Positions 15,081-30,785 of a DNA stretch of 48,309 nt are shown piece by piece; within the stretch, counting starts at the first letter, position 1, and the number at the start of each line of letters is the position of its first letter. The position numbers were made by a program, and so were the translations under genes. Source of the DNA: Nitrospirota bacterium (GTDB lineage: Bacteria; Nitrospirota; Nitrospiria; SBBL01; JAADHI01); assembly GCA_029261215.1 (NCBI GenBank), contig JAJDBT010000009.1, forward strand, positions 1 through 48,309, read 5' to 3'. The notes beneath the pieces are model-generated. The model did no database searches. It saw nothing but the letters and a program-made list of their open reading frames with translations, and was not told where the DNA came from.

Positions 15081-15111
15081 TTTCTGAATTCCGAAAACTG
15101 TTTTCCAGAAA
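15081..15111. promoter_or_regulatory. Dyad upstream of the sigma-54 promoter, possible enhancer site
   Basis: TTTCTG (15081-15086) is complementary to CAGAAA (15106-15111), and between them GAAAAC (15093-15098) and GTTTTC (15100-15105) form a 13-base palindrome. It lies about 80-105 bases upstream of the sigma-54 -24 element, where activators of sigma-54 commonly bind. The function is inferred from position only. Confidence 0.35.
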
Positions 15112-15187
15112 CTAAAAAATTATCACTAATCTTCCTTATATACAGACAAAAGAGCCGTTTTAGGGCCTCCTTTTAAAAATATTATTT

Positions 15188-15203
15188 TGGCACGCCACTT
15201 GCT
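15188..15203 (+). promoter_or_regulatory. Sigma-54 (RpoN) promoter
   Basis: TGGCAC (15188-15193), five bases, then TTGCT (15199-15203) is an exact match to the sigma-54 consensus TGGCAC-N5-TTGCW, with the invariant GG and GC in the correct spacing. Transcription would start near 15215 and leave a leader of about 83 bases before the first small secreted-protein gene. Sigma-54 promoters need an AAA+ enhancer-binding protein, so the operon should be strictly inducible. No such activator gene lies in the window. Confidence 0.85.
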
Positions 15204-15233
15204 TTATGTACATTCCGTAACGCAATGACGGCG

Positions 15234-15261
15234 AATGAGAAAGCAGCGGGGCATTCTCATT
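15234..15261 (+). other. 5'-leader hairpin
   Basis: AATGAGAA (15234-15241) pairs perfectly with TTCTCATT (15254-15261) around a 12-base loop. It lies within the predicted leader and could protect the mRNA 5' end. The ribosome-binding site (AAGGAG) is outside the stem. Confidence 0.45.
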
Positions 15262-15297
15262 ACTTAAAATAAAACAAAAAAATAAGGAGAAATAACA

Positions 15298-15660
15298 ATG
15301 AAAAAAATGACAATGATTGCAGCGTTTTTAGGATTAGGATTAGTGCTTGGATCAGCTGGTATCAGCGAAGCCGGATGTTTCATCGGCTGCGGTGGCGATG
15401 ATGAATCCGTCAACATTGATGCCAGCCGGGAAGACAGTGACAATATCGGCGGAGACCAAATTGACAACATGGGACAGTTTGCAGTCGACAGCGTTGTCGC
15501 AAAAGACGTCACCATTGAATCCGGTGATACCCATGCACACATCAGCGGCGACGTCATCGGCAGCCAGGTGCAGGCCAACTCCACGGCTTTGATGCAAGGT
15601 GTGGATAAGAGCCATGACAATATCTCGACCACAACGACCACTTTTAATGTAAATCAGTAA
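15298..15660 (+). CDS. Small secreted protein A, GCxxxC N-terminus
   Basis: A 120-residue precursor. Residues 1-22 form a signal peptide ending SEA, giving a predicted mature start GCFIGCGGDDESVNID. The -3 residue is Glu, so this is not a standard lipobox, and cleavage by signal peptidase I is more likely. The mature part is acidic and rich in Asp, Ser, Asn, Gln and Thr, with alternating hydrophobic residues (DSVVAKDVTIESGD). It ends with LMQGVDKSHDN and a Thr/Asn tail, which suggests beta-strands or a fibre-forming chain. It is the first gene behind the sigma-54 promoter, with AAGGAG nine bases before the ATG. It is a close paralogue of the next gene. No known family was recognised. Confidence 0.75.
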   Translation: MKKMTMIAAFLGLGLVLGSAGISEAGCFIGCGGDDESVNIDASREDSDNIGGDQIDNMGQFAVDSVVAKDVTIESGDTHAHISGDVIGSQVQANSTALMQGVDKSHDNISTTTTTFNVNQ

Positions 15661-15678
15661 TTGGTAAAAAAATCAATT

Positions 15679-15710
15679 CCGGGAGAGGTTCAGACGATAA
15701 CCTCTCCCGG
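15679..15710 (+). other. Intercistronic hairpin 1
   Basis: CCGGGAGAGGTT (15679-15690) pairs perfectly with AACCTCTCCCGG (15699-15710) around 8 bases. No T-run follows, so it is more likely an mRNA-stabilising or processing element, or a partial terminator, between secreted proteins A and B. Confidence 0.75.
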
Positions 15711-15744
15711 CTTAAAAACCCACTTAAAATAAGGAGAAATGACA

Positions 15745-16107
15745 ATGAAAAAAATGACAATGATTGCAGCTTTTTTAGGATTGGCCATGATTCTTGGAAC
15801 AGCAGTTCAGAGTGAAGCCGGATGCCTTTTCGGCTGCGGCGGCGACGACGAATCGGTCAATATCGACACCAGCCGCAACGACAGCGATAACATCGGTGGC
15901 AATCAAACGGACAACATGGGGCAATTTGCAACAGACAGCGTGGTTGTTAAAGATGTGACCGTTGAAGCCGGTGATACACACGCCCATGTCCGCGGCGATG
16001 TGGTCGGCAGCCAAGTACAAGCCAACTCCACGGCCTTGATGCAGGGCGTTGACAAAAGTCATGACAACTTTTCTAGAACAACCACCGAGTTTAACGTGAA
16101 TCAATAG
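15745..16107 (+). CDS. Small secreted protein B, paralogue of A
   Basis: This 120-residue precursor is very similar to protein A along its whole length, including the MKKMTMIAAFLGL signal start, GCLFGCGGDDESVNID, DNIGGNQTDNMGQF, DSVVVKDVTVEAGD and LMQGVDKSHDN. Start choice: the ATG at 15739 is only two bases from the GGAG motif, while ATG 15745 has normal spacing and aligns with the start of A. The signal peptide is predicted to be removed before Gly-Cys. The two genes and their leaders (ACTTAAAATAAGGAGAAAT) look like a tandem duplication. It is probably exported with A. The function is unknown. Confidence 0.75.
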   Translation: MKKMTMIAAFLGLAMILGTAVQSEAGCLFGCGGDDESVNIDTSRNDSDNIGGNQTDNMGQFATDSVVVKDVTVEAGDTHAHVRGDVVGSQVQANSTALMQGVDKSHDNFSRTTTEFNVNQ

Positions 16108-16117
16108 TCGATACAAA

Positions 16118-16150
16118 GTGAGTGTCGGGAGGATTTCTCCCGGCACTCAC
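16118..16150 (+). other. Intercistronic hairpin 2
   Basis: Bases 16118-16131 pair with 16137-16150 in a 14-bp stem with one G-T pair and a 5-base loop. It occupies the same position after gene B as hairpin 1 does after gene A, but with a different sequence. TTTAGATT follows, which is too weak for a clear intrinsic terminator. Confidence 0.75.
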
Positions 16151-16188
16151 TTTAGATTCATTCATGCAACTTCAAGGAGACTTTGAAA

Positions 16189-16539
16189 ATGAACAAAAAA
16201 ATCTATATCGCAATTATCACAGGCATATTGTTTTTTTTGGGAAACACCCAGTCCATTAAAGCGGGATGTCTCATGTCCTGCGAGGAAGACACATCCGAAG
16301 CCTACATGGAAGACGAAGAAAAACTTCCCAATGAGGAAGCGCAAAAAGATGAGCGCACACAGCATTTTGGAAACTTAAGAGACAGCGTGGTGGTCAGCGG
16401 CGTTGAAATGAATTCGTCGAATCACGTGACCGTCGGCTCAAATTCCGGAGACATCAACACCACTTCAAGCACCATCATCATGGGCGTGAACAAAAGCCAC
16501 AGCAATACAAACAATACGAATACGACGAGTAATCGATAA
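16189..16539 (+). CDS. Small secreted protein C, divergent relative of A and B
   Basis: A 116-residue precursor starting at ATG 16189, eight bases after AAGGAGA; the in-frame TTG 16183 is too close to it. A signal peptide ends SIKA, giving the mature start GCLMSCEEDTSEA, again a GCxxxC terminus. The middle is Glu/Lys-rich and the C-terminal part keeps DSVVVSGVEMNSS, IIMGVNKSHSN and an Asn/Thr tail, matching A and B. The low-complexity tail suggests a flexible or amyloid-like end. It is the third cistron of the sigma-54 operon. The family is unknown. Confidence 0.7.
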   Translation: MNKKIYIAIITGILFFLGNTQSIKAGCLMSCEEDTSEAYMEDEEKLPNEEAQKDERTQHFGNLRDSVVVSGVEMNSSNHVTVGSNSGDINTTSSTIIMGVNKSHSNTNNTNTTSNR

Positions 16540-16589
16540 TGTTGAGCAATAAAAACGGGTCATTTGATCAGTCTGAAGGGAGAACAACC

Positions 16590-17066
16590 ATGCACATAAA
16601 AAACGCAGCGACAACCAGAATACTTCTCCTTTTTGCCTTATTCTCTGGAGGCCAAATAGGACAAAGCCTTGCGGCCCCTCCAATTCTCAGTGAAGCGGCT
16701 GTTCAAGAAACGGCAGAAGCGAAAAAAAACGAGGAAAAAGAAAAAACACCGGAAGAACTTAAAAAAGAAAAAGAAGCAAAAGCGTTTTCAAAGGAATTAC
16801 GCGGGGTGAGGCAGCGTCAGGAACGTGTTGAACAACAGATCCGAGTTCGTGCGAATATCTTTCCTTCCACTCCGCCCGACGTTGAATGCACGGCAGCGGA
16901 CCGTGCCCGCTCCCGGCTCGAAAAAGTCACCGGAGAGGGCGGGGTTGTGATTTTGGGAGATGTGGTCATCGATTCGAGCAATGACGCCAATGTGGAAAAC
17001 AACGATGGCAGCATCAATAATGAAGTAAACGTCAACATTATCAACCAAACCGAAAAACGATGTTAA
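16590..17066 (+). CDS. Secreted coiled-coil protein with Asn-rich C-terminus
   Basis: A 158-residue precursor. The start is ATG 16590, preceded by GAAGGGAG; an upstream start would add a hydrophilic extension before the signal peptide. The signal peptide ends about SLAA. Residues 30-85 are highly charged (repeated EKEK, EELKKEKEAK, QRQERVEQQ) and probably form a coiled coil. The end (GVVILGDVVIDSSNDANVEN...) alternates hydrophobic and Asn/Asp residues like proteins A-C, and a final Cys could pair with the Cys near residue 98. It lies between the small secreted proteins and the CsgG-like gene, suggesting a chaperone or minor subunit. No family was recognised. Confidence 0.7.
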   Translation: MHIKNAATTRILLLFALFSGGQIGQSLAAPPILSEAAVQETAEAKKNEEKEKTPEELKKEKEAKAFSKELRGVRQRQERVEQQIRVRANIFPSTPPDVECTAADRARSRLEKVTGEGGVVILGDVVIDSSNDANVENNDGSINNEVNVNIINQTEKRC

Positions 17067-17092
17067 AAGGATTTAAAGACGAGGAGTGTATC

Positions 17093-18154
17093 ATGGGAAA
17101 GACACAAAAAATCTATTCAGTCATCCTCTTCAGTTTACTGACTTTATGTTCAATTCACCCCGCATGGACAAGCGCCGCATCTGCCTCGGGCGGGGGGGTT
17201 AAGGTTCGCGTGGCGGTTGCCCGGTTTGGGGCAACCGACCGTTTTGCTCAGGTCTACGGCGGCTGGGATATTGGAGGCGGACTTTCAGCCCAACTCGTGA
17301 CGGAGTTAATCGACTCAGGTCAGGTGATTGTTGTAGAACGGGCCATCCTTTCCCAGATTTTACGTGAGCAGGAACTTACGGACTCCAAACTTGTAACCAA
17401 AGAAACGGCCGCACAAGTTGGACAACTGCTCGGGGTGGACTATTTAATTGTCGGTCAAGTCACCGAATTTGAACAAAAAGCAGTCGGCGGCGGCGCACGG
17501 GCGGGCTGGCTTGGCGGCATTTTTCCAAAAGCCTCGGGAGAATTCACCGCAGCGCATGTCGGCATTGATTTGAGAATTATCGATACATCCACGGGGGAAA
17601 TCTTAAGTTCCCACCGTGCGGAAGGCCGATCCTGGGAAAAAGCCCTCGCCCTGGACTTTAGTTTTCCGCTTTTTACCTTTGGCGGAGATGCTTTCCACAA
17701 AACCCCATTGGGAAAGGCGACTCGAAAAGTCATCGGCGAATCACTTCGTTTTGTTTTGGGGGCCGTTAAAGAGCGGATGGAATCCTATTCAAGCTGGCTT
17801 GGGAAAGTGATTCATGTCGAAAATCAAGTGGTCTATCTCAATGCAGGGACAGAGACCCAAGTACAAGTTGGAGATCGTCTCTCGGTTTTTTCAATCAAAA
17901 AAGTACTGACCGACCCGGAAACGAATCAGGTGATCGGTTTAATTGAAAACCCCATTGGGGAACTGGGGGTGATTTCCGCTAAAGAAAAATTCTCAAAAGC
18001 ACGTATGGTGAGCGGGACCGCGCTTCCCAAAACAGGAGATATTGTTCGTTTTGCACAGACGCATTCAAAGTTTGGCACAGGGCCGGACTTTGAAAGCAAA
18101 CAGGACATCCAAAAACTAAGCCTCAAAGGGAAAGAATACATGGTTCTTGAATAA
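17093..18154 (+). CDS. CsgG-family protein with FlgT-like C-terminal domain
   Basis: A 353-residue exported protein starting at ATG 17093 (ribosome-binding site GAGGAG). The signal peptide covers about residues 1-32. Residues 40-215 match the CsgG fold: VRVAVARFGAT, WDIGGGLSAQLVTELIDSG, IVVERAILSQILREQEL and LLGVDYLIVGQVTEF, followed by IIDTSTGEILSSHRAEG. CsgG forms the outer-membrane pore for curli subunits. The C-terminal part (GKVIHVENQVVYLNAGTETQVQVGDRL... to DIVRF) resembles the FlgT C-terminal domain. Unlike E. coli CsgG there is no clear lipobox. It is the last gene of the sigma-54 operon, so it is the best candidate export or assembly factor for proteins A-C. That role is inferred. 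Confidence 0.8.
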   Translation: MGKTQKIYSVILFSLLTLCSIHPAWTSAASASGGGVKVRVAVARFGATDRFAQVYGGWDIGGGLSAQLVTELIDSGQVIVVERAILSQILREQELTDSKLVTKETAAQVGQLLGVDYLIVGQVTEFEQKAVGGGARAGWLGGIFPKASGEFTAAHVGIDLRIIDTSTGEILSSHRAEGRSWEKALALDFSFPLFTFGGDAFHKTPLGKATRKVIGESLRFVLGAVKERMESYSSWLGKVIHVENQVVYLNAGTETQVQVGDRLSVFSIKKVLTDPETNQVIGLIENPIGELGVISAKEKFSKARMVSGTALPKTGDIVRFAQTHSKFGTGPDFESKQDIQKLSLKGKEYMVLE

Positions 18155-18174
18155 GAAGACGACCGACGAAACCC

Positions 18175-18203
18175 TTGACCCTATAGGCCGTCTGTCCTAG
18201 AAT
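18175..18203 (+). promoter_or_regulatory. Sigma-70-like promoter for the protease-kinase operon
   Basis: TTGACC (18175-18180), 17 bases, TAGAAT (18198-18203). A CCTA...TAGG element overlaps the predicted start site and could bind a regulator. It allows the genes from 18260 onward to be expressed separately from the sigma-54 unit. Confidence 0.65.
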
Positions 18204-18259
18204 GCGCCTAGTACGTTTAGGATAAGTTGACCCTTTTAGATTAAAGAAACCATAAAAAA

Positions 18260-19735
18260 ATGACAAAAAAAAACCCATATATTTTAATCTTCATTATCTC
18301 ACTTACCCTGGTGACAGGGTGCGTTCGCCGCATTGCGCCGAACGGCATCGGCCCGACAAACCTGGAAGAAGGGTTAATCGCATACGACCAGGGGGAATGG
18401 GAAAAGGCCCTGTCTCATTTAGACAAAGCCATTCAAAATGATCCTGAAAATACAGAAGCCTATTTTAAGCGCGGCGTTATTTTCCAGCGCATGGAAAAAA
18501 TTGACTCCGCAATCTTAAATTATCGGGAAGTGGTCCGCATCGACCGGAAGCACTTTAAAGCCCATTACAACCTAGCCAATCTCTATTCCTTTGAAAAAGC
18601 AGATGCTGTTCAGGCCGTCTTTCACTATCGCCGATTTCTTAAAATGGCTCCGAATCACCCGCTTGCACCCAAGGCACGGGACAAACTGGCCAAGCTGACA
18701 AAAGTTGCGGGAGATAAAAACCCCTTTCTCTCCTCGGAAAAAGAACAGGACAGACTTGCAAGTGGATCCCCTTTTGCCGGAGAACTTGTGCAGCCGCCGA
18801 TTTCCCCGCCCCCTTTTTCAAAACCCTCTTCAGAAAAACCAGGTCGAGGCGGCGTCTTTCCTCAGGTTGTCTGTATCAGCGGGATGGTGGGGCAAACACA
18901 GGTCGAAGGGAGTGGTTTTATTGTGGGAGAACAGGGCTACATTCTTGCCAGCGGGCATCAGGTAGAGCGGGCCACACGACTTACTGTAAAATTTCAGGAT
19001 GGCAGCACCTATCCGGCCAATCTGCTTTCAGTCAGCGAAGCACTCGATTTATCCCTGCTCCAAATTCCTTTTCAGGGGATGAGCCCCTTAGCCTTTGATC
19101 TTGAAAAATCCGCCAGCGTGGGAGATCCCGTGCTCGCGGTGGGCTGCCCTTTTGGGCTCAACCACTCGGCTTCGCAAGGGATTATCAGCGCTCCGGAGCG
19201 AAAAATAGGCGAAAAACACTTATTGCAAACAGATGTCGCGATTAATCCGGGAAGCAGCGGCGGCCCACTACTCAGTCGGGAAGGAGAAGTCCTGGGTGTT
19301 GTCGTCGGCATGCTTCCACAGGCCCAAGGCATCGCATTTGCGCTCCCGGCACGGGAAGTCCGTCATTTTCTTGGGGAGACTTTCCTGCAAATCGGAAACC
19401 TCTATGCCGAGGTAAACCGCTACACTGAAGCGGCCGAAGCCCTGTTGATCAGCAGCAATTTTTGGCCGGAGTCGCCACAAGCCCTGAATAATCTGGGCGA
19501 AGTCTATCGAAGGCTCCAACAATTTGATGCGGCAGAGACCGCTTATTTAAGATCTTTATTAAGTAATCCGAGGTATGCGGAAGCCCATTACAATCTGGGT
19601 ATTCTTTACGACAACCATTTAAACAAACGAAAACAGGCCGCCACGCATTATCGAAAATATCTTGAACTCAAACCCAGATCAGCCGATGCCGCGCAAGTCG
19701 GACAGTGGCTGACGGCGGCGGAATCAGGCCAATAG
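18260..19735 (+). CDS. Lipoprotein with TPR, trypsin-like protease and TPR domains
   Basis: A 491-residue lipoprotein: the signal ends LVTGC, a good lipobox. TPR motifs cover about residues 33-145, a Pro-rich linker follows, then an HtrA/DegP-type serine protease domain (about 195-385), then further TPRs (about 390-480). The triad is intact: His233 in LASGHQVE, Asp263 in ALDLSLLQI, and Ser333 in NPGSSGGPLL (the family norm is NPGNSGGP). There is no PDZ domain, so the TPRs may take over substrate selection. It would act in the periplasm, anchored to a membrane. Eight bases separate it from the kinase gene, indicating one operon and possibly protease-kinase cooperation. Confidence 0.85.
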   Translation: MTKKNPYILIFIISLTLVTGCVRRIAPNGIGPTNLEEGLIAYDQGEWEKALSHLDKAIQNDPENTEAYFKRGVIFQRMEKIDSAILNYREVVRIDRKHFKAHYNLANLYSFEKADAVQAVFHYRRFLKMAPNHPLAPKARDKLAKLTKVAGDKNPFLSSEKEQDRLASGSPFAGELVQPPISPPPFSKPSSEKPGRGGVFPQVVCISGMVGQTQVEGSGFIVGEQGYILASGHQVERATRLTVKFQDGSTYPANLLSVSEALDLSLLQIPFQGMSPLAFDLEKSASVGDPVLAVGCPFGLNHSASQGIISAPERKIGEKHLLQTDVAINPGSSGGPLLSREGEVLGVVVGMLPQAQGIAFALPAREVRHFLGETFLQIGNLYAEVNRYTEAAEALLISSNFWPESPQALNNLGEVYRRLQQFDAAETAYLRSLLSNPRYAEAHYNLGILYDNHLNKRKQAATHYRKYLELKPRSADAAQVGQWLTAAESGQ

Positions 19736-19743
19736 GATCTCCA

Positions 19744-21195
19744 ATGACAACATCGGTGCGATATCAAATCATTGAGGAAATCGGGCGCGGGGCCATGGGA
19801 ATCGTTTACCTTGGGAAAGATCCCAAAATCAACCGGGATGTCGCCTTAAAATGTCTTCGGCCCCATATTCTGGAAGCCCATGAAAGCGCTGGCAAACGCT
19901 TCCAGCAGGAAATCCTGGCCCTCGGCCGATTGATTCATCCCAACATCGTCACGATTTTTGATGTTTGGGAAGATCCTGCTTCAAACAACACTTACATTGT
20001 GATGGAGTATGTTGAAGGCACTTCACTGGCCCAACTCATTAAAGAGAAATCGCCTTTCTCAGCGGAAGAAGTGGTTTATATTGGCGTTGAAATCTGCAAA
20101 GGGCTTCATTTTGCCCATTCCAAAGAAGTTGTTCACCGGGACATCAAACCCGCAAATGTCTTGCTCTCGGAAGACTTGAGCACCGTAAAAATCACGGATT
20201 TTGGGATTGCGCGTCTCGACAGTATCGGCCTGACCCAGAGTGACCACCTGGCCGGAACCCCTCAATATATGTCCCCCGAACAATGCCGGGGAGAAACGCT
20301 CAGCGGTCGATCTGATCTTTTTGCCGTGGGCGCATTGCTTTATGAAATGCTCACCTATCAAAAAGCCTTTCAGGGGGACTCGGTGACGGGCATCATGCAT
20401 AAAATTCTGACCCATACGCCCTATCCTCCGTACCTCGTTTCCGATGATGCTTCGGAAGCATTAAGTGCAGTCGTGATGCAAGCACTTGAAAAGGACGCCG
20501 ACAAACGATTTTCATCCGGGTTTGCAATGGCCGATGCGCTAAGGGTCTCTCTCGAAGAGACAGCAGTAGACACGGACCCTTCGTTCCAGTCGACCCCCTC
20601 CATTTCATCCTCTCACTCAATGACGGAAAAAATAGAGCATATCGGAGAGACGGCCGAGACCCGGGCCGCGCCTCTCTCTCCAGAGACACTGGATACACCT
20701 GAAAGACCTGTGGCTTCCGAAACCCGTATCCCGCGGATTGAAAAGAAGGCTCGCGGAAGACGTCTCCCCCTCATGCTGCTTCCGATTGCCCTGCTTGTAG
20801 TCATTGGCATTTTGTACACACTGCAACTGACTCCAAACACCCCGCTGAAAGGCCCTTCAGACCCAAAATCGGCGGGGTCTGCCCCACAGGATAAAAACAG
20901 ACAACCGCAATCAAAACCAACAGCCGCACCGATCCCCAGGATGCGCGAAAAAATCGACATAAAACCCCAGGTTTTGTTCGGGCAAGTCATTTTTGCCACG
21001 AGCCCAAGCGGGGCAGATATTTTAATTAATGGCATCAATAAGGGGAAGAGTCCTGTGACACTGGATCTTCCCGCAGGGTCACATGACTTGCTTGTTTCCA
21101 AAAAAGGCTATCATGCTCTGGAGGCGACCATTGATGTGCCCTCCGGAGAAAAAACACCTGTCACCCTGAAACTACTAGAGGAGAACACGCCATGA
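19744..21195 (+). CDS. Transmembrane Ser/Thr protein kinase with PEGA domain
   Basis: A 483-residue eukaryotic-type kinase starting at ATG 19744. Visible motifs: glycine loop GRGAMGIVYLG (14-24), Lys36, catalytic HRDIKPANVLL (His131, Asp133), DFGIA (Asp152), and GTPQYMSPEQ in the activation segment. A variable Ser/Thr-rich linker leads to one membrane helix (about 341-360), a Pro/Gln-rich stretch, and an extracytoplasmic PEGA domain (about 415-480, ATSPSGADILINGINKGKSP...). The kinase domain faces the cytoplasm and PEGA the periplasm, where it could sense or bind the surface system encoded around it. Its stop overlaps the next start (ATGA), so translation is coupled. Confidence 0.93.
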   Translation: MTTSVRYQIIEEIGRGAMGIVYLGKDPKINRDVALKCLRPHILEAHESAGKRFQQEILALGRLIHPNIVTIFDVWEDPASNNTYIVMEYVEGTSLAQLIKEKSPFSAEEVVYIGVEICKGLHFAHSKEVVHRDIKPANVLLSEDLSTVKITDFGIARLDSIGLTQSDHLAGTPQYMSPEQCRGETLSGRSDLFAVGALLYEMLTYQKAFQGDSVTGIMHKILTHTPYPPYLVSDDASEALSAVVMQALEKDADKRFSSGFAMADALRVSLEETAVDTDPSFQSTPSISSSHSMTEKIEHIGETAETRAAPLSPETLDTPERPVASETRIPRIEKKARGRRLPLMLLPIALLVVIGILYTLQLTPNTPLKGPSDPKSAGSAPQDKNRQPQSKPTAAPIPRMREKIDIKPQVLFGQVIFATSPSGADILINGINKGKSPVTLDLPAGSHDLLVSKKGYHALEATIDVPSGEKTPVTLKLLEENTP

Positions 21196-23120
21196 AGACA
21201 ATCAAGTACCTGATGATGCTCGGACTGATCATTCTCCCTTTTCTCAGACCTGCAATCGGGGAAGCCGCGCTGACAAAAGGCGCCGTCGCGCCCTCTTTTA
21301 CCGCCCTCGAAACCCACAAAAAAGTGCCGATGATCATCCTTTATTTCTTTAAACATACCTCCAACCCTTCGATCGAGGGACTGGAAAACCTGAAGACCCA
21401 ATATGCTTTGTATCAAAAAGCCGGGATCAAAATTATCGCCATCAGTAAAGATCCAGCCCCTGCTTTGAATCAATATCTGAAAAAGGCGGCTCTGCCCTTT
21501 CCTGTTGTAAACGACACCGGGAAAATATTTAAGGATTACGGCGTTCAGATTATTTTTCCAACCACCATCATCCTTGGCCCCGGCGGGCGGGTCACCGACA
21601 CGCTCGAAGGCGGCGGACCTTCATCAAAACAATTTATCACCACCGTCGCACAACGCAGTATGCAGCTCAAACAAAATACCCTCGCAAAAACACTCTACAC
21701 CCAGGTTTTAAAGAATGACCCAAAAGATGTTGCAGCCCAAACGGGCCTGGGTGAAATTTTGCTCAAAGAAGGCAAGTTCGACCAGGCCCAGGCGACATTT
21801 TCAAAAGTGGTGGCATTAAACGCTCCTGAAGCCATTTTAGGAAAAGAAGGACTGGCCGCACTCCATCTTGAAAAAGGAGAAACAGCTCAGGCGATTGCCG
21901 TGGCAGAGGAAATTCAAAAAGACGATCCGGAAAATGGACTGGTTCACCTCATCAAAGCCAATGTCCTTGCAAGCCGGGGTGATCAGGATGGGGCATTATC
22001 TGAGTACAATGAAGCGATTGATGGAAAGCTGAGCACAGATTTACAACGAGCTGAAGCCTACAACCAGGCGGGGCGCATCCACTCGGAACGCGGAAACTAT
22101 GACCAGGCGGAATCAATGTACCAGCAGGCGGTCAACCAAAATCCCTATTCCTCCGAAATTTTAACCAACAGCGGGGCGCTCTACGAAAAACAAGGCCAAC
22201 CTCACAAGGCGCTGGCATTTTACCAGGAAGCCCTCACCGCCGACCCTGCCGACGAAGTGGCCCAGCTTCTCTCCATACGTATCACCCAGCACCTCGAATT
22301 CAAAGAAGACATGGCCCGTCAGGAGCGTGTAGACAAACTCGTAACCGAACTGGCAGACCGCTTCAAGGCAGGGAGAATCGCATCTGATACCCCTTCAGAT
22401 CATTGGTCTTCGCGACCCATGACCGTCGCCTTTTTAGGATTAAAGTCCATCGGAAGCGGGGGGCTCTTGCGTGAAGGCATGACACAAGTGCTTCAAGAGG
22501 AAATCGCTCAAAAAATGATGTCTTCCCAACGCATTTCAATGGTTGAACGTGAGATTCTGGAGAAACTTTTGATGGAGTTGAAACTCGGATCCTCCGAACT
22601 GGCCGATCCCGAAACTGCATTAAAACTGGGAAAAATCCTGGCTGCGCGCCTTATTGTCACTGGCAGCCTGATTCAAGTGCCAAACGGTATCCGGCTCAGC
22701 CTGCGCATCATTGACCCTGAAACCTCAGCGATCAAAATGACCTACTCGGACGAGATGGGCCCGAATAAAGGGTTGATGGCGCTTGCGGATGCTACCGGAC
22801 GAACCTTAAGCGAACGCATCAGGACGACTTACCCGCTTCGTGGCAAAATCGCTCTGGTTGAAGAAGACCATCAGGTCATCGTCAACCTCGGTCGAAAACA
22901 TGGCATGCAAGCCGGGGTCAAAATGAAAATTATCGCAGACGGCGACGCCATTATGATGGACGGAAAAGTCATTGGTCATCGAAAAAAGAAGGTCGGCCTG
23001 CTTGAAATTGTGAGCGTCGAAGAAGGGCTTTCATACGCGAAATTGACCGAAGAGACCGCAACCATCCAAAAGGATCAAAAGGTTCTGGAAAATGTGGAAA
23101 AAGCACCCAAGGCTTTCTAG
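21192..23120 (+). CDS. Fusion: redox-dead thioredoxin fold, TPRs, CsgG/FlgO-like and FlgT-C-like domains
   Basis: A 642-residue exported protein (signal peptide about 1-25). Residues 28-160 have the AhpC/TlpA-like thioredoxin fold (VAPSFTALE, MIILYFFKHTSNPSIEGL, GIKIIAISKD, FPTTIILGPGG). The active-site CxxC is replaced by Ser57-Asn-Pro-Ser60, so no disulfide chemistry is expected. TPR repeats cover about 165-385. A FlgO/CsgG-like domain follows (about 405-540: MTVAFLGLKS, MVEREILEKLLMELKLGSSEL, LGKILAARLIVTGSLIQ), then a FlgT-C-like domain (GKIALVEEDHQVIVNLGRKHGMQAGVKM). It overlaps both neighbouring genes, placing it firmly in the kinase operon. It is likely a periplasmic scaffold; the role is inferred. 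Confidence 0.8.
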   Translation: MKTIKYLMMLGLIILPFLRPAIGEAALTKGAVAPSFTALETHKKVPMIILYFFKHTSNPSIEGLENLKTQYALYQKAGIKIIAISKDPAPALNQYLKKAALPFPVVNDTGKIFKDYGVQIIFPTTIILGPGGRVTDTLEGGGPSSKQFITTVAQRSMQLKQNTLAKTLYTQVLKNDPKDVAAQTGLGEILLKEGKFDQAQATFSKVVALNAPEAILGKEGLAALHLEKGETAQAIAVAEEIQKDDPENGLVHLIKANVLASRGDQDGALSEYNEAIDGKLSTDLQRAEAYNQAGRIHSERGNYDQAESMYQQAVNQNPYSSEILTNSGALYEKQGQPHKALAFYQEALTADPADEVAQLLSIRITQHLEFKEDMARQERVDKLVTELADRFKAGRIASDTPSDHWSSRPMTVAFLGLKSIGSGGLLREGMTQVLQEEIAQKMMSSQRISMVEREILEKLLMELKLGSSELADPETALKLGKILAARLIVTGSLIQVPNGIRLSLRIIDPETSAIKMTYSDEMGPNKGLMALADATGRTLSERIRTTYPLRGKIALVEEDHQVIVNLGRKHGMQAGVKMKIIADGDAIMMDGKVIGHRKKKVGLLEIVSVEEGLSYAKLTEETATIQKDQKVLENVEKAPKAF

Positions 23121-23811
23121 GTTCCCTTTGACTTGTCTGACAATGTTTTGTATCGTGCAAGCCTGTACTTCAAAACCAGACATTAAGAATTCGGAGGTCG
23201 CCCTCCCCCAAATGTATACGGTTGCCGTCATGCCTTTTAAAGACAATAGCATGAGTCACTCCCCGGAAACCCTCGGGTTGGCCCAGACCGTCGTTGAACG
23301 CATTTCAGAGCAACTGGCCGGTGCTCACGGCATTTCCCTCATCGACCGGGATTCGATTGAAAAACTATTAAATGAACTTTCCCTTTCCAGCCAGGGTCTC
23401 ACCGAATCGGAAGGACGGCTTGAGCTTGGAAAACTCCTCGGGGCCCATTATCTGTTGATGGGGGAATATAGTGAAATTTTTGGGAATCTCCGTCTGGATG
23501 CCCGCATTGTCGAAGTACAAACAGGAAAGATCATTGGTTCAAACGAAATGAATGGCGCTGTCACCAAAAGACCGCAACTGGAACAGGTTTTTTCAGAAAA
23601 AACAGCGGCGCTCCTGCTTTCGAAAACCGGAGGAACGCGTACTCCTAAAGCGAGCAGCAGCCAGGATTACCTGAAGCTTGGACTCAAGTACGAACAGGAA
23701 AATAAACCGGATGAGGCCTTAAACGCATATCAAAAAGCCCTTTCCCTCAATCCGGAGAACCAAGAGGCAAAAGACCGCATGGAAACCCTGATGATTATGG
23801 CCATTGAATGA
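23092..23811 (+). CDS. FlgO/CsgG-like lipoprotein with C-terminal TPR
   Basis: A 239-residue lipoprotein: a basic start (MWKKHPRLSR), a hydrophobic segment and lipobox VQAC. The FlgO/CsgG-like domain covers about residues 40-180: YTVAVMPFKDNSM, LIDRDSIEKLLNELSLSSQGL, LGKLLGAHYLLMGEYSEI, ARIVEVQTGKIIGSNEM. One or two TPR motifs follow (YLKLGLKYEQENKPDEALNAYQKALSLNPEN). Proteins of this type sit in the outer membrane in flagellar (FlgO, FlgP) or curli (CsgG) systems; no flagellar or curli structural gene is nearby. It overlaps the preceding gene by 29 bases, so co-translation is likely. Confidence 0.8.
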   Translation: MWKKHPRLSRFPLTCLTMFCIVQACTSKPDIKNSEVALPQMYTVAVMPFKDNSMSHSPETLGLAQTVVERISEQLAGAHGISLIDRDSIEKLLNELSLSSQGLTESEGRLELGKLLGAHYLLMGEYSEIFGNLRLDARIVEVQTGKIIGSNEMNGAVTKRPQLEQVFSEKTAALLLSKTGGTRTPKASSSQDYLKLGLKYEQENKPDEALNAYQKALSLNPENQEAKDRMETLMIMAIE

Positions 23812-23913
23812 AAATCGGTATAAAAACACGGCACAACATTGCGACAGACATGGCATGACATGCTGAATTCAAGCGATAGCAGACCTCATCGTCTTATCAG
23901 ACAAAGGATAAAA

Positions 23914-26094
23914 ATGCACACCCAAAATGCAACACAATCTCTTTTTTTTGCAAGCCTGCTTTTTCTTTTTTTTCTGGCGGCCTGCGGCCAAGGGGAAAAG
24001 CCTTCAAATGGCGCAGCATCGGTGGGCCTTAGTCTGAAATTCGCCGCCGAAGACAGTCAAAAGGGATCATCAGAACCGCGATTGAAACCGCCTGGGGAGT
24101 ATGTGCTATCCGTCAAAATTCAGGTCACCACAAATACAGGCTCGCCCGCAGCGGACACTGTTGTTGCGAACGTGACTCCAGGCGAGACACTGATTGTAGA
24201 AATTAAAAATGTGCAAACCGGCCCCGCACGCACATTCACGGTGGAAGCCTTTTCCGGACCCAATGGAACAGGCAATCTGGTTTTTCAAGGGCAAAAAACC
24301 GTTGACCTTCTTCCAGGAACAAGCGTAGCACTTACAATCGACATGCGTCCGGCTGAAGGCCCTTCGCCGGGAGAATCCATTGCACTTACACCCAAAGAAG
24401 TCACGGTTGAACTTTTGAGCGCAACGACATTTACCGCAGATACCCCCGACCCCGTATTGGAATGGTCTGTCAATGATGTCATTGGCGGAAATGAAGCACT
24501 GGGAACCCTTGTCATCCAGGGCAACATCGCAACCTATACTGCTCCAGCGGCTTTTCCTGAAACAAATGTCCTCACCATCAAAGCCCTCAGTGTCACAGAT
24601 CCAACGTCTTTTGGAACCGCGAAGGTCAACCTGAAAAATCCAGAATTTCAGATTTCACCCCGCTCAGCCATCGTTCCAAAAATACAGAAACAGGCATTTA
24701 CCTTAAGTGGCATTGCCCCTTCTAATGTCACATGGCAAGTCAATGAAGTCATTGATGGGAACAGCACCCTTGGGACAATTGATCAAAACGGTCTTTATAC
24801 TGCCCCGGCTTTGATTCCCATTGATACCAAGCAAACAACCATCGGCGTGCCGCTGCCGATCCGGGTAGAAGCGCACAGCAAGACCAATCCTGCTTCAATC
24901 GATATGGCCACGCTTCGGGTCATGACCGGATCACAGATCGGTTTTGGCGAAAACATGCCGCTCTCAAATGCCGGCGTGTCCACCCGATCTGCCGGACAAA
25001 GGAGCATCGCTTTTTATAAAGGAATCGTTTACGCGACCTGGAGTGACGGGACCAATATTTTCTTCGCACAAAGTACAGATGGCCTGAACTGGTCAGATCC
25101 GGAACTTATTTTTGCCTGTACCGGGGGCAATGCAAAAAACCCCGCAATGGCCATCGGCTCAAAGGGCGAAATCTACATCATTCTTGAAGAAACAATCCAG
25201 GGCCAAGGCACTTCTGTTTGGCTTTTAATCCGGGCGAGTGCAACGGCCGAGTTCCAAGCGGAACAAATCGTGAAAGACAGCTCGCCCTCACCCGAACCCA
25301 GCATCGCCGTCGCACCGAACGGCACTGTTTTTATGGCGTGGGCGACTGAACAAGAATTGACCGGCTACGACATCTTCTTTCAACGCTTGAATTTCGACGG
25401 AACCCCTCTGGATGAAAGCCCAAGGCCACTCACACAAAAATCACTTTCTGAAAAATCGCCTGTTTTGAATGTTTCAGAAAGCGGCCTTGTCTTTGCCGCC
25501 TGGATAGAACAAACCTTTGACTCAAGCCAAACCACAGCCGCTTTTGTGCAATCCACAAACAGCCTTTTTGCCGCCTCATCGACTGATGGCGGGGTGTCCT
25601 TTTCGGCTTCCGTTCAAATCGATGATCTAAGCACGCTCAATCCTGCTAATGCCATGCGGCCCTCCTTGGCTGCGGGGCCTGCCGGAACCGTCTATGTCGC
25701 TTGGGAACGTGATACCTGCGGGGATGGCTGCGTTGAGATTGCCTTCGATACGGGAAAAATGGGTGCCTCTGGTTTATCTTTCGGGTCTGATCAAAGTGTG
25801 CGTCGAGCGGATCAGGAATCCTTTCCCCGACAATATTCACCCAGCGTCGCATGGGACGCGGCCAACGGAATCTATGTCGGGTTTTTAGAAGAAGGTTCGG
25901 ATGACCTGATCTATCTGGCCAAAAGCACAGACGAAGGCACGAAATTCTCATTTTCAAGAATAAGTGATATCGCAGGCTTTCCGAAGTCAAACCCTGCCAT
26001 TGCCGTAGATCGTGCAGGACGGGTCTTCTCCATTTGGGCAGGGCCAGGCGAAAGCGAATCAGGCAATGTGGCCTGGTTTTCCTGGGGAGAATAA
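23914..26094 (+). CDS. Large lipoprotein: Ig-like domains and beta-propeller
   Basis: A 726-residue protein. The start is ATG 23914 with AAAGGA upstream; a longer frame to 23839 would bury the signal peptide. Lipobox LAAC. After a Ser/Gly linker comes a beta-sandwich (about 45-145), then two Ig-like modules with WSVNDVIGGNEALGT and WQVNEVIDGNSTLGT. From about residue 370 a sialidase/BNR-type propeller follows, with repeated Ser-x-Asp-Gly-x-x-W-like blades (STDGLNWSDPELI, SSTDGGVSFSASVQI, STDEGTKFSFSRI). No sialidase Arg triad is obvious, so it is more likely a binding than a hydrolytic propeller. The N-terminal half is paralogous to that of the lipoprotein at 27483. Probable surface exposure is inferred. 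Confidence 0.75.
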   Translation: MHTQNATQSLFFASLLFLFFLAACGQGEKPSNGAASVGLSLKFAAEDSQKGSSEPRLKPPGEYVLSVKIQVTTNTGSPAADTVVANVTPGETLIVEIKNVQTGPARTFTVEAFSGPNGTGNLVFQGQKTVDLLPGTSVALTIDMRPAEGPSPGESIALTPKEVTVELLSATTFTADTPDPVLEWSVNDVIGGNEALGTLVIQGNIATYTAPAAFPETNVLTIKALSVTDPTSFGTAKVNLKNPEFQISPRSAIVPKIQKQAFTLSGIAPSNVTWQVNEVIDGNSTLGTIDQNGLYTAPALIPIDTKQTTIGVPLPIRVEAHSKTNPASIDMATLRVMTGSQIGFGENMPLSNAGVSTRSAGQRSIAFYKGIVYATWSDGTNIFFAQSTDGLNWSDPELIFACTGGNAKNPAMAIGSKGEIYIILEETIQGQGTSVWLLIRASATAEFQAEQIVKDSSPSPEPSIAVAPNGTVFMAWATEQELTGYDIFFQRLNFDGTPLDESPRPLTQKSLSEKSPVLNVSESGLVFAAWIEQTFDSSQTTAAFVQSTNSLFAASSTDGGVSFSASVQIDDLSTLNPANAMRPSLAAGPAGTVYVAWERDTCGDGCVEIAFDTGKMGASGLSFGSDQSVRRADQESFPRQYSPSVAWDAANGIYVGFLEEGSDDLIYLAKSTDEGTKFSFSRISDIAGFPKSNPAIAVDRAGRVFSIWAGPGESESGNVAWFSWGE

Positions 26095-26184
26095 ACACAG
26101 ATTGAACCACGGGTGGGATTGATAGCCCCCGAACACAAGGGCAACTCATCCTGAACTTTTAATGATAATAGGAGCGCATTCGTC

Positions 26185-27429
26185 ATGTTCCATCACAAAG
26201 ATGTAGTTCAAGACCCTCACCGTATCACCAAGCAGGGCAGGCTTCTGCCGCTCTTTTTTACGGTCTTAATCCTCAGTTCATTTTTAATGCCTCCCGGGGC
26301 ATCGGCACTTTCAGGGATTTCAGACAAAGCGCTCAAAAAACTCTACGGGAGCGGGCAGTATAAAGAAGTTGTTGAAGCCCTGGCAGGCTCGGAAGATTGG
26401 AACTCAGAACAATCCCTCTACCTCGGCCTCAGTCATTTGCGTTTGGGGAATCCCCTGCAAACCATCCGGGCATGGCAGCATTATGTACGCCTGGAAAAAG
26501 GGAGCGAAGGTGGACGAAAAATTTCTCAATACCTGACGCAGCTCTTGAAGCAGGAAGCGACACAAAACGCAAAAGAACAAATAAACCGTGAAAAACAGCT
26601 TGCAATCCAGCTCGACCCCAAGGCGATTGCAGTATACCCCTTTGAAAATAAGGGATCGGAAACCTACGCGCCGCTTTCAAAGGGCCTTGCGGCGATGATC
26701 ATTACAGATCTTTCAAAAGTAAAAGGACTCACCGTTGTCGAAAGAATCCAGCTTCAAGCGGTGCTCAATGAACTGAAAATCGCAAAATCCGGCATCGTCA
26801 ATCCCTTGAGCGCCCCAAGTGCCGGAAAGCTCGTCGGCGCGGCAAAGTTTACGACAGGCAGCATTCTGGATCTGGATGAAGAAAAGATGCGGATTGACGC
26901 CAAAGTCACGCACACAGAAAGTGGGAAACAGGTTTCAGCGGTCGATACTGCCGGAGAACTGGCGTCTTTTTATACCCTGGAAAAAATGCTGGTCTTTAAA
27001 CTGCTTTGCGGCCTCGGGTATTGCCCTGAAAGTCTGGACAACCAGACACGATTGGCCATCGACAAAATTCACACCAAAAACTTTAAAGCCTTTCAGCATT
27101 TTTCAGAAGGTCTTGATTTTTTTGACGAAGCAAATTATCGGGAAGCAGCTCGCTCCTTTGTGCTGGCATTGGAAGAAGATCCTAATTTTGAATTGGCCAG
27201 AAAAGCCTTATTGGAGACCCCCCTATTGCGGCTGACGATTGATCAAATGATTGCTGGCGCAGAATCCATTAATAAAAACACAGACCTGCAATTCCGTTTT
27301 GAAGCAGCGGGTTCTGTCACCCCGAATATTCGTATCGTCAACCCTGTTATCCCCCCGCCTTACTGCACGACATGCACCAGTGCTGGCGGAACGACTGTAC
27401 CCGTGGAGATCCAGATTGATTTTCCATAA
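26185..27429 (+). CDS. Exported FlgO/CsgG-like protein with TPR-like helices
   Basis: A 414-residue protein preceded by AATAGGAG. A signal peptide (about 15-42) ends PGASA; there is no lipobox. Helical repeat-like segments (LYGSGQYKEVVEAL, YLGLSHLRLGNPLQTIRAWQHY) lead into a FlgO/CsgG-like domain (about 150-290: KAIAVYPFENKGSE, VVERIQLQAVLNELKIAKSG, GKLVGAAKFTTGSILDL, DAKVTHTESGKQVSAV). A TPR-like hairpin comes next, then a Pro-rich tail with a CTTC motif. It lies between the two large lipoproteins and is probably periplasmic or attached to the inner face of the outer membrane. It is the fourth CsgG/FlgO-type protein in 10 kb. Confidence 0.75.
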   Translation: MFHHKDVVQDPHRITKQGRLLPLFFTVLILSSFLMPPGASALSGISDKALKKLYGSGQYKEVVEALAGSEDWNSEQSLYLGLSHLRLGNPLQTIRAWQHYVRLEKGSEGGRKISQYLTQLLKQEATQNAKEQINREKQLAIQLDPKAIAVYPFENKGSETYAPLSKGLAAMIITDLSKVKGLTVVERIQLQAVLNELKIAKSGIVNPLSAPSAGKLVGAAKFTTGSILDLDEEKMRIDAKVTHTESGKQVSAVDTAGELASFYTLEKMLVFKLLCGLGYCPESLDNQTRLAIDKIHTKNFKAFQHFSEGLDFFDEANYREAARSFVLALEEDPNFELARKALLETPLLRLTIDQMIAGAESINKNTDLQFRFEAAGSVTPNIRIVNPVIPPPYCTTCTSAGGTTVPVEIQIDFP

Positions 27430-27482: not shown

Positions 27483-30400
27483 ATGAAATGTTCATCTAAA
27501 ATGCCACATCCAATTCGAAACATGTTTGCGTGCATGTTCATCCTCGTCTGTTTTTTATCCGCCTGCGGTCAGAGCGAATCACCCGGCAGCGCCGGATCGG
27601 GGGGGACGGCCTCTGTCGGGATCACAATCACCACGAAAGGGGCGAATCGTCAAAGTGCCTCAAAAACGTTTCAGGCTGCAGAAGCCCCTGCCTCTATCTC
27701 GGAAGTGCGTGTCATCGTCACCACGACCAACAATGCCGAGTTAGCACGCGACCGGGCCACGGTCACAACCGGGCAAGCCGTCATTCTCAGGTTGGATGTC
27801 CCCGTTGGGACAGATCGTATTTTTACGGTTGATGCATTCGATGAAGAGGGGCACGTCCAGCTTTTTGGCCGCGCAGTCACAGACCTTGTTGCTGGAACGC
27901 AAGCAGTGGTTCTGCCCATCACCGTTTCTCCCCCCGTCACGCTCGACCCTGAAGAAGCCATCGTTCCAACAGGACAAACTCAAAACTTTACCGCAAGCAT
28001 CCATCCCCAGCTCAATCACAGCAAAACGCTCTGGTTTGTAAATGACATCCCCGGCGGCAATGCCACTTTGGGCACCATTACCTCACCCACTTCCAATACG
28101 GCCATTTATACCGCGCCTGACGTGCCACTCGAACAAACAATCGTCGTCAAAGCGGCCAGTGATGAGAACCCTGACCTATATTTTGATAAATCTCCCGTCA
28201 CCATCGCAAATGTACGTCATGTAAATCGGAATACGGGCAACGACACGCAAGACTGTGGGACAGAAAACGATCCCTGCCGAACCATCACCCAGGGTTTGTC
28301 TTTGGCGATAGCAGGAAATGTGGTCCTGGTCGCCCCAGGCACTTACCCCTTTGGTTCTGCGACCGGAGATGAGACATCTCCCCTTCTATTAAAATCCGGG
28401 GTGATTCTAAGAGGACAGACTCTGGACGACAGGCCGCCCATCATCGATTTTATCGATCCGGGACAATCAAATAGCACTGCAACCGGGATAGTGGGCGCGG
28501 ACACGGCCACCCTCGAGAATTTTACAGTACAAGGCAGTGGTCTTTTTGACAACCTGATTCAAACCCAGGGCACATCCCCCGTCATTATCAACAACATTTT
28601 TAAAGCCAGATCATCATGTGCTGACTGTAGCCCAGGGACAGAAGGTTCGGCCATACTCGCCGACACCGCCGGGTTAGCTGTGATTCAGGGCAATACTTTT
28701 GGAGAAGATGATTTTCGAGGTTTTTCAGAAGCAATCCACGTCAGCGGTGAGGCCGCACCGCTTATGACAAAAAACACCTTCATCGGAAACAATACGGCGA
28801 TCGAAATCATCGAAAATGCCATGCCGGTTCTTGCCGAAAACATCATTTCTGGTAATGGGATAGGGGTCGCCGTATCGGGCAATGCCGCACCGGATTTAGG
28901 CCGCAAAGGCGGCAGCCCCGGACAAAACATTCTAAGCTGTAATTTCAATGCAGACCTTTTGAATAACACATCCACAACCCTCTTCGCCCAAAATAATCAG
29001 TGGGATCATGTACCGCCTCAACGAGGGAGCATTAATGATGAAACCTCGGGGATCGATATCCGATTGGGGAACAGGGAAAGCGATGTTAATTCTGGCGGTG
29101 CTCAACAATACCCGAATGGCAATTGCAATATTGGCATCCGCGCGACACCTGACGCGGGTCTCGTGACCAGCGAGGCGGGGGGAACGGACGGAAGCGACAC
29201 TTTCAGCGTCACCCTCGGCACGCAGCCCATCGCCGATGTCGTGATTGCCCTTTCATCCGGCACCCCAGGAGAAGGAAGTGTCTCTCCAGGCAGACTCACT
29301 TTTACTTCAACAAACTGGAATCGTCCTCAGGAAGTGACGATCACCGGCGTGGATGATGACATTGTGGACGGATCGCAAGGTTACAACATCAACCTGACTG
29401 CAACCAGCGAAGACTTAAACTATATTGAAGCGGCTGCAAGTGTCTCAGCAACAAATACCGACAATGATTTGACTCTCGAATTGACCCAGACAGGTTCCGG
29501 CAGGGTCACAGGTGAAGGCACTTATGATTTTGGAACCTCCGTTTCAGTCAGCGCCACACCATCAAGCGGATCTACTTTTACCGGCTGGACAGGCCCTGAC
29601 GCCGCAGAATGCGCAAGCGGTTTCGTCACCATGAACGCCGACAAAAGCTGTACGGCCAATTTCAGAATTGATATTCGCACCCTGACGGTTGCCATTGCGG
29701 GGGCAGGCAGTGGAAACGTCATCTCGGAACCTGCCGGAATCAATTGTGAGAGTGATTGCACTGAGAATTACCCTGTGAATACCGTGGTTGCCCTGACCAC
29801 CCGCCCAGTGACCGGGTCTGTTTTTGTCGGCTGGTCCGGTGACCCTGATTGCAGTGATGGCTCCCTCACCATGAATTCAAACAAAACATGTACAGCCACC
29901 TTTGGCCTTGATACCCGAACGTTGACAGTCATCACAACTGGAACAGGTACTGGCCGCGTGTTTAGCTCGCCTGCGGGCATTGACTGCGGCAGTGGTTGTA
30001 CAATTCAATCGGCAGACTTTAATGCCGGTAGAAATGTTAATCTGACTGCTGAGCCTGCCATCGACTCGGATTTTACAATCACCGACTGGTCTGGCTGTGA
30101 TAATACCGGGTTCAGGAACTGCTCCGTAACCATGAATGCCAACAAAACCGTTACGGCCAATTTTAGATCGACTGCCATTTTTCGCGCACATTTTAATGAG
30201 GACGACCCCGCAAAACCGCCCAACCTTTCCCCCCCAGGCCCACCAGAAAGAGATCGATTGGAGCTCCGCTTAAACCCTGATCTTGACGGAACGATTCTTG
30301 TTCAGGAGAAAGTGGGAGACCTCGATATAAAACCGCTTCTTTTGAATGTTTCAGGTGAAGGTCGTTTTGGTTTCGATGGCTTTGTCTCAGGTGATCCGCC

Positions 30401-30785
30401 AAGGTCTGGTGTATATCTGATCCGATGGCGGTCACTGGTTACGAGCACCTTGACGAATGCAAATGTCACGATCATTGTTCGAGACAGTATTCGCGCTTTC
30501 ATGACAGGCCTTATCTATGATGAAAAAGTTGTTTCCTTTATTGACCAAAGTGTCGTGCCGTGGCAAGCGGGCGTTTCTCAATTATTTGAGTTTACACTCG
30601 ATTTTGATAAAAAAGTTTCCAGTTTGCGTGTTGACGGGAAAGACATTTACGAGGGTTTCGAAATTTGCGGGCCCGGTACGGAAACAAGCTGCGATTTGTC
30701 TGAAATTTCAATCACCATGACAACGAACAGACCTTCCCCTCAGGGGTTCGCGATAGACCAAATAGCAATATTTAAAGTGCCTTAA
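27483..30785 (+). CDS. Very large lipoprotein: Ig-like, beta-helix, Calx-beta-like and bacterial repeat domains
   Basis: A 1100-residue protein with lipobox LSAC. Order: Ser/Gly linker; beta-sandwich and Ig-like module (about 60-245, WFVNDIPGGNATLGT) related to the lipoprotein at 23914; DUF1565-type right-handed beta-helix (about 255-510, starting VNRNTGNDTQDCGTENDPC); a Calx-beta-like module (about 560-655); then three bacterial repeat domains (about 660-895) each ending in MN(A/S)(D/N)K(S/T)-type strands followed by CTANF or a variant. Cysteine pairs occur in the later repeats. A C-terminal jelly-roll-like region completes it (about 900-1100). The build resembles adhesins or polysaccharide-binding surface proteins; no catalytic site was identified. 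It directly precedes the TPR/beta-barrel gene that could export it. Confidence 0.78.
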   Translation: MKCSSKMPHPIRNMFACMFILVCFLSACGQSESPGSAGSGGTASVGITITTKGANRQSASKTFQAAEAPASISEVRVIVTTTNNAELARDRATVTTGQAVILRLDVPVGTDRIFTVDAFDEEGHVQLFGRAVTDLVAGTQAVVLPITVSPPVTLDPEEAIVPTGQTQNFTASIHPQLNHSKTLWFVNDIPGGNATLGTITSPTSNTAIYTAPDVPLEQTIVVKAASDENPDLYFDKSPVTIANVRHVNRNTGNDTQDCGTENDPCRTITQGLSLAIAGNVVLVAPGTYPFGSATGDETSPLLLKSGVILRGQTLDDRPPIIDFIDPGQSNSTATGIVGADTATLENFTVQGSGLFDNLIQTQGTSPVIINNIFKARSSCADCSPGTEGSAILADTAGLAVIQGNTFGEDDFRGFSEAIHVSGEAAPLMTKNTFIGNNTAIEIIENAMPVLAENIISGNGIGVAVSGNAAPDLGRKGGSPGQNILSCNFNADLLNNTSTTLFAQNNQWDHVPPQRGSINDETSGIDIRLGNRESDVNSGGAQQYPNGNCNIGIRATPDAGLVTSEAGGTDGSDTFSVTLGTQPIADVVIALSSGTPGEGSVSPGRLTFTSTNWNRPQEVTITGVDDDIVDGSQGYNINLTATSEDLNYIEAAASVSATNTDNDLTLELTQTGSGRVTGEGTYDFGTSVSVSATPSSGSTFTGWTGPDAAECASGFVTMNADKSCTANFRIDIRTLTVAIAGAGSGNVISEPAGINCESDCTENYPVNTVVALTTRPVTGSVFVGWSGDPDCSDGSLTMNSNKTCTATFGLDTRTLTVITTGTGTGRVFSSPAGIDCGSGCTIQSADFNAGRNVNLTAEPAIDSDFTITDWSGCDNTGFRNCSVTMNANKTVTANFRSTAIFRAHFNEDDPAKPPNLSPPGPPERDRLELRLNPDLDGTILVQEKVGDLDIKPLLLNVSGEGRFGFDGFVSGDPPRSGVYLIRWRSLVTSTLTNANVTIIVRDSIRAFMTGLIYDEKVVSFIDQSVVPWQAGVSQLFEFTLDFDKKVSSLRVDGKDIYEGFEICGPGTETSCDLSEISITMTTNRPSPQGFAIDQIAIFKVP

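Follow-up and report, generated by a model that had tools for sequence, protein, structure and literature searches.

What does a bacterium export, if anything, when a CsgG-family gene stands behind small secreted proteins that are not recognizable curli subunits? The question is raised by a 48,309-nucleotide contig of a Nitrospirota bacterium (JAJDBT010000009.1, assembly GCA_029261215.1; the whole stretch is called the window here). In it a sigma-54 promoter precedes genes for three small exported proteins (A, B and C), a fourth exported protein (D) and a CsgG-family protein (E). The reading that we favour, and to which we give about an even chance, is that of an inducible surface operon in which E would act as a CsgG/HfaB-type pore extruding A–C as subunits. 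The features on which it draws are as follows.

15082–15117, + strand: tandem element 5' of the promoter, a pair of TTCCGGAATCCGAAA-like dyads at a spacing of about 21 bp; putative sigma-54 activator site
15188–15203, + strand: sigma-54 (-24/-12) promoter, TGGCACGCCACTTGCT; exact match, conserved before A, with rpoN in the genome
15298–15660, + strand: gene A, 120 amino acids, exported; no Pfam or NCBIfam family
15679–15710, + strand: RNA hairpin after A, perfectly paired stem of 12 bp without a T-run; intergenic -24.4 kcal/mol, z -5.3
15745–16107, + strand: gene B, 82% identical to its paralogue A
16115–16153, + strand: RNA hairpin after B, 17-bp stem; intergenic -35.1 kcal/mol, z -5.9
16189–16539, + strand: gene C, diverged A-family member, about 28–30% identity; E-value to A 1.4e-7
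16590–17066, + strand: gene D, exported, 158 amino acids
17093–18154, + strand: gene E, CsgG-family domain that keeps both hairpin regions, then a FlgT_C/TsaP-like C-terminal domain; no lipobox

The five open reading frames lie where the original prediction, made from the sequence alone, had placed them, all on the forward strand. That prediction spoke of three related small exported proteins; all three do carry signal peptides and A and B are close paralogues, but C is only distantly similar to A. It also ended the operon at E. Genes A–E do belong together, but the operon extends past E to about 23811; A is preceded by guaB-guaA.

The promoter was considered against 18 genomes from the same order, representing five families. 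TGGCAC-N5-TTGCT occurs at 15188–15203 and nowhere else in the window, even when one mismatch is tolerated; since 1.9 one-mismatch matches would be expected by chance in such a window, a single site alone is weak, and it is conservation across genomes that makes the site credible. The same site stands before A in 15 promoters from 12 order genomes. Thirteen of these promoters match exactly, and each of the other two carries a single C-to-T change. Its distance to the A start is 91–124 bp in 14 promoters, the fifteenth belonging to a second locus in genome G003. The five spacer bases vary across promoters while the -24 and -12 bases hold, apart from that C-to-T change. Seven exact sites occur in the 3.37-Mb genome, compared with two for a reversed control pattern, and the genome encodes RpoN (Sigma54_DBD, E-value 4.1e-58).

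An ungapped block search revealed, in 14 promoters, a tandem element (consensus half TTCCGGAATCCGAAA) located 86–131 bp 5' of the sigma-54 site, which puts it within the range of about -80 to -150 used for upstream activator sites. The block scored 39.7 bits, against 20.0–20.6 bits in shuffled sequences, although such scores overstate independence because the promoters come from related genomes. With up to three mismatches there is one match in the whole genome. The element looks like a binding site for a dedicated sigma-54 activator. No activator gene was recognized beside the operon among the upstream neighbours viewed; at one locus a GAF histidine kinase gene lies close by. A search of the genome's other sigma-54 sites for the element yielded no second tandem and a single half-site at one site only. 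That site (L115, 5384–5489, genome contig 50) is an exact match; a small HicB-like gene follows it at 59 bp, and the half-site lies 105 bp 5' of the match. Another exact site (L114, 5415 onward, contig 37) is followed after 53 bp by a PilC-like gene and a pseudopilin/pilin-like run. Sigma-54 control, as originally proposed, is supported by the conserved exact site, the tandem upstream element and the presence of rpoN, while the first description of the promoter region, correct as to the sigma-54 site, had missed both the conserved element at 15082–15117 and the hairpins after A and B. The bacterial exterior is described as commonly under sigma-54 control (PMC3162934).

The mature A and B proteins are acidic (pI about 4.1), and Asn, Gln, Ser and Thr make up a third of their residues (33% in A); in C the share is 41%. 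An invariant CxxxC lies at the mature N-terminus of A and B, directly past the predicted signal-peptidase site. None of A–C had a supported match in Pfam, NCBIfam or PDB sequences, and none of the 28 A–C proteins scanned matched Curlin_rpt, the scan covering these proteins rather than whole genomes. Amyloid formation by A–C is not supported so far. We considered whether A–C might be lipoproteins and rejected it: a lipobox-like LIGC or FIGC occurs at the second Cys in only eight of the 28, after charged residues. Protein D has a charged, helical first half and a conserved, Asn-rich, beta-type C-terminus, with two invariant Cys. The idea that a common GD[IV]..SN.AN motif links D with A was likewise dropped, the profile comparison having aligned signal peptides alone.

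Two lines of evidence suggest that A and B are highly expressed: the hairpins behind them and low synonymous divergence, as in codon-biased genes. Hairpins at least as strong as about -15 kcal/mol stand behind 23 A/B-type genes, with stem sequences that differ among genera; none was found after C-type genes, nor in locus L099. Synonymous divergence (pS) is 0.49–0.66 for A/B, compared with 0.67–0.78 for E and 0.71–0.79 for guaA/guaB in the same pairs from the three nearest genomes. The ratio of non-synonymous to synonymous change (dN/dS) of 0.04–0.07 for A and 0.05–0.06 for B indicates purifying selection. Genome G006 (L030, 4121–7239) has three A-type genes, and every one of them is preceded by an upstream element and a sigma-54 site of its own. 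The first and second are separate units that finish in hairpin-plus-T-run terminators, with aquaporin-like and arsenate-reductase-like genes (named by eye) between them.

Relatives of A were found in 12 of the 18 order genomes. The A–C profile retrieved nothing outside the order in a sample of 396 genomes from the phylum, and among genomes taken at one per bacterial or archaeal species, close A relatives turned up in two, both from this group. The original prediction had called for a search of whether A–C always adjoin a CsgG-family gene and named as refuting their wide occurrence without such a neighbour; A–C lie beside D and E wherever contigs allow, and no case of the second kind was seen in the genome scans. 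D is present in 13 of the 18 genomes, including G015 from a sister family, and wherever the locus could be read it lies directly 5' of E. In all sufficiently long A-bearing loci the order is constant: A-type genes, D, E, TPR-protease, kinase, TPR/CsgG-fold protein and CsgG-fold protein. The upstream neighbour varies, being guaBA in the window's genus and other genes elsewhere. G015 keeps just a leading protein, D and E, and its genes past E do not match those of the window. The leading gene (L079, contig 64), about 890 bp 5' of E and in the place of A–C, encodes an Asn/His/Asp-rich exported protein of 140 amino acids. As an A homologue it reached a probability of 23% and was treated as unrelated. 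Retention of D–E behind a different leader fits a leading gene that is a fast-changing substrate.

Protein E matches the Pfam CsgG model over nearly its full length (E-value 1.3e-29, profile positions 9–202 of 210), scoring 103 bits, compared with 25 for FlgT_M. Against CsgG in the PDB, a broad profile with two canonical CsgGs among its members aligned across this same stretch at an E-value of 2.6e-33, while an order-only profile gave a weak 0.003. The two hairpin regions of E comprise 41 and 33 residues; in the canonical CsgGs from G007 and G014, two genomes of the same order, each region has 38. The first region is about 15 residues long in the operon's two other CsgG-fold proteins (21192 and 23092). 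The structural model of E (mean predicted local distance difference test score, pLDDT, 69.9) has long strands at 117–133, 147–164 and 170–187 and hairpin tips with pLDDT 43–51; hydrophobic alternation in the tips is not distinct from the remainder of E. The C-terminal part also matches TsaP. Because E falls below the cut-offs of HfaB (27.8 bits against 300, an NCBIfam equivalog model), of the CsgG equivalog and of FlgT (FlgT_M 25.4 against 31.2, FlgT_C 16 against 27, with no FlgT_N), its sequence appears to place it just in the broad CsgG/FlgT superfamily. The Pfam CsgG model is itself unspecific, 171 of 601 matches being true curli CsgG and the others taken as paralogues (PMC3521004), so the family label does not imply export.

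The relation to curli was addressed by looking for the accessory genes. No CsgF match over cut-off was found in the window's genome or in any D-bearing genome; no CsgE was found among the operon proteins scanned, no genome-wide search for it having been made. Curli loci are recognizable in two genomes without A–E: G007 (L111, contig 43, 6377–12172) carries csgE, csgF and csgG with three curlin-repeat proteins, and G014 (L112, contig 37, 2569–4126) carries csgEFG, its CsgE being below cut-off. Thus csgF occurs in none of the 13 D-bearing genomes and in two of the five others, numbers too few for significance. The distribution would fit replacement of curli by the operon in this order. Of the original statement that no CsgA, CsgB, CsgE or CsgF homologue is visible, the absence of CsgF and of curlin repeats in A–C therefore stands, and that of CsgE extends to the operon proteins. 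The broader proposal of curli-like secretion fared unevenly: sigma-54 control, exported proteins and a CsgG-family gene agree with it, while the missing lipobox, the missing curlin repeats and FlgT as the best fold do not.

Beyond E, a 105-bp gap, which could hold a promoter of its own, separates E from four further genes.

18260–19735, + strand: TPR protein with trypsin/HtrA-like protease domain (Pfam Trypsin_2 2.8e-28, plus TPR); same gene order in relatives
19705–21195, + strand: Ser/Thr kinase with PEGA domain (Pkinase 9.7e-55, PEGA 8.2e-15); conserved neighbour
21192–23120, + strand: AhpC/TSA-type thioredoxin fold, TPR and CsgG-fold domain; first pore hairpin missing; conserved neighbour
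23092–23811, + strand: third CsgG-fold protein, CsgG/LpoB-like; first pore hairpin missing; conserved neighbour

The kinase gene has a GTG start, and the true start may lie a few codons downstream. Altogether, four CsgG-fold proteins are encoded within 10 kb (17093, 21192, 23092 and 26185; region 17093–27429). A gene 3' of the operon (27483–30785) encodes a secreted, lipoprotein-like protein of 1100 amino acids with DUF1565 and InlB B-repeat-type domains.

We infer the following sequence of events. A sigma-54 activator would bind the tandem site at 15082–15117 and open the promoter at 15188. A and B would be abundant and C less so, helped by the mRNA hairpins behind A and B, and later genes of the operon would be produced in smaller amounts. 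A–C would cross the inner membrane via Sec. E would form a CsgG/HfaB-type ring or pore in the outer membrane, with its FlgT/TsaP-like C-terminal domain in the periplasm, and D would be its dedicated partner, in the role that CsgE/CsgF or HfaD have elsewhere. A–C, as the extruded subunits, would then assemble on the surface into a layer or fibre outside the cell, serving attachment or as a matrix. A bolder version, which we hold tentatively and consider rather doubtful, is that the locus represents a distinct outer-membrane secretion system, in which a CsgG–FlgT/TsaP-like fusion together with D, under a dedicated sigma-54 activator, exports a new family of small subunits with a Cys pair and takes the place of curli in this order.

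Several observations weigh against a pore that extrudes A–C. In structure E comes closest to FlgT, which it matches across both domains (Z 16.1, compared with 10.9 for CsgG), and E and its order relatives lack the lipobox that G007 and G014 have on their canonical CsgGs. E relatives outside the order (31–41% identity) occur without A–D, and one such locus that was scanned has FlgT_N and LPP20 genes alongside. The AlphaFold model of A is disordered (pLDDT 40), and self-alignment, while above shuffles in some A–C relatives, found internal repeats no stronger than in shuffles in most members, A and B included. The order genomes are related, hence their conserved sites are not independent; the mutual exclusion of operon and csgF rests on two genomes; and gene conversion between A and B could partly explain their low synonymous divergence. 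In one alternative E would instead be a FlgT/TsaP-like periplasmic ring or anchor with no pore, the operon building or stabilizing an envelope structure and A–C, as envelope or surface proteins, leaving by another route, such as a type II/pseudopilus system, or staying in the periplasm. We regard this as possible though improbable on balance. The two-domain match to FlgT, the match of the C-terminal domain to TsaP, the lack of a lipobox and the company of FlgT_N and LPP20 outside the order all speak for it, as does the sigma-54 site before a pseudopilin/pilus operon in the same genome. CsgG is, however, by far the better sequence family for E, which has no FlgT_N and whose hairpin regions are both near CsgG length, and no flagellar genes were recognized nearby.

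It is also conceivable, but highly unlikely, that the operon is curli proper, its subunits and accessory proteins having changed past recognition. A full-length CsgG domain, small exported proteins rich in Asn, Gln, Ser and Thr and the csg genes of relatives would suit such an origin; the lack of CsgF over cut-off in A–E genomes, of curlin repeats in all 28 A–C proteins, of repeats beyond chance in most of them and of a lipobox in E would not, and G007 and G014, from the same order, have kept their curli genes recognizable. The conserved genes past E suggest a further alternative, an envelope signalling or stress module in which A–D would serve the PEGA kinase and the TPR-protease as ligands or sensors in the periplasm, with E as a scaffold. 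The kinase, the HtrA-like protease and the TPR/CsgG-fold proteins are indeed constant neighbours. We nevertheless think this unlikely, as the hairpins behind A and B and the low synonymous divergence of the two genes suggest abundant structural proteins rather than signals, and the genes past E, given the gap before them, possibly have a separate promoter.

The interest of the locus lies in the fact that CsgG-family proteins far outnumber curli systems and that most Pfam CsgG matches are non-curli (PMC3521004). A fixed set of small exported proteins with one partner and a conserved switch makes non-curli CsgG export directly testable. Nothing specific to the operon, or to a CsgG exporter of substrates like these, came up in literature searches. 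Manganitrophus appears to belong to the order, and one genome paper on this manganese-oxidizing group makes no mention of CsgG, curli or amyloid (PMC9040806). Speculatively, should A and B be abundant matrix proteins, they would be candidates for the material within which manganese-oxide nodules arise.

Four known systems invite comparison. Fap, a functional amyloid of Pseudomonas, resembles the locus in being encoded by an operon of exported subunits together with an outer-membrane exporter, the role that E would have here. FapF is an unrelated barrel, and the operon proteins have no Fap family match. With FlgT of the flagellar H-ring and with TsaP, E shares a middle domain of CsgG/TolB type with a FlgT_C-type beta domain behind it. 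It differs from FlgT in lacking FlgT_N, in scoring under the FlgT_M and FlgT_C cut-offs, in its CsgG-like hairpin lengths and in a setting where no flagellar genes were recognized near the operon. Curli, or type VIII secretion, shares a CsgG-family protein with both hairpin regions and small exported proteins rich in Asn, Gln, Ser and Thr, whereas the operon lacks CsgF, curlin repeats and a lipobox in E, and has a FlgT_C/TsaP-like domain and a sigma-54 promoter. The fourth is HfaABD, the holdfast anchor of Caulobacter, in which HfaA and HfaD need HfaB, a CsgG relative, to reach the surface (PMC6707917). Here E scores far below the HfaB cut-off, HfaA is described as CsgA-like while A–C have no curlin-repeat match, and no holdfast sugar-secretion genes were recognized among the operon's neighbours. 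The two nonetheless share a CsgG relative with partners other than CsgE and CsgF, and small proteins that depend on this relative at the surface in Caulobacter (PMC6707917) and would do so here. Type VIII-like secretion is a plausible analogy for the operon, with HfaABD as its closest counterpart.

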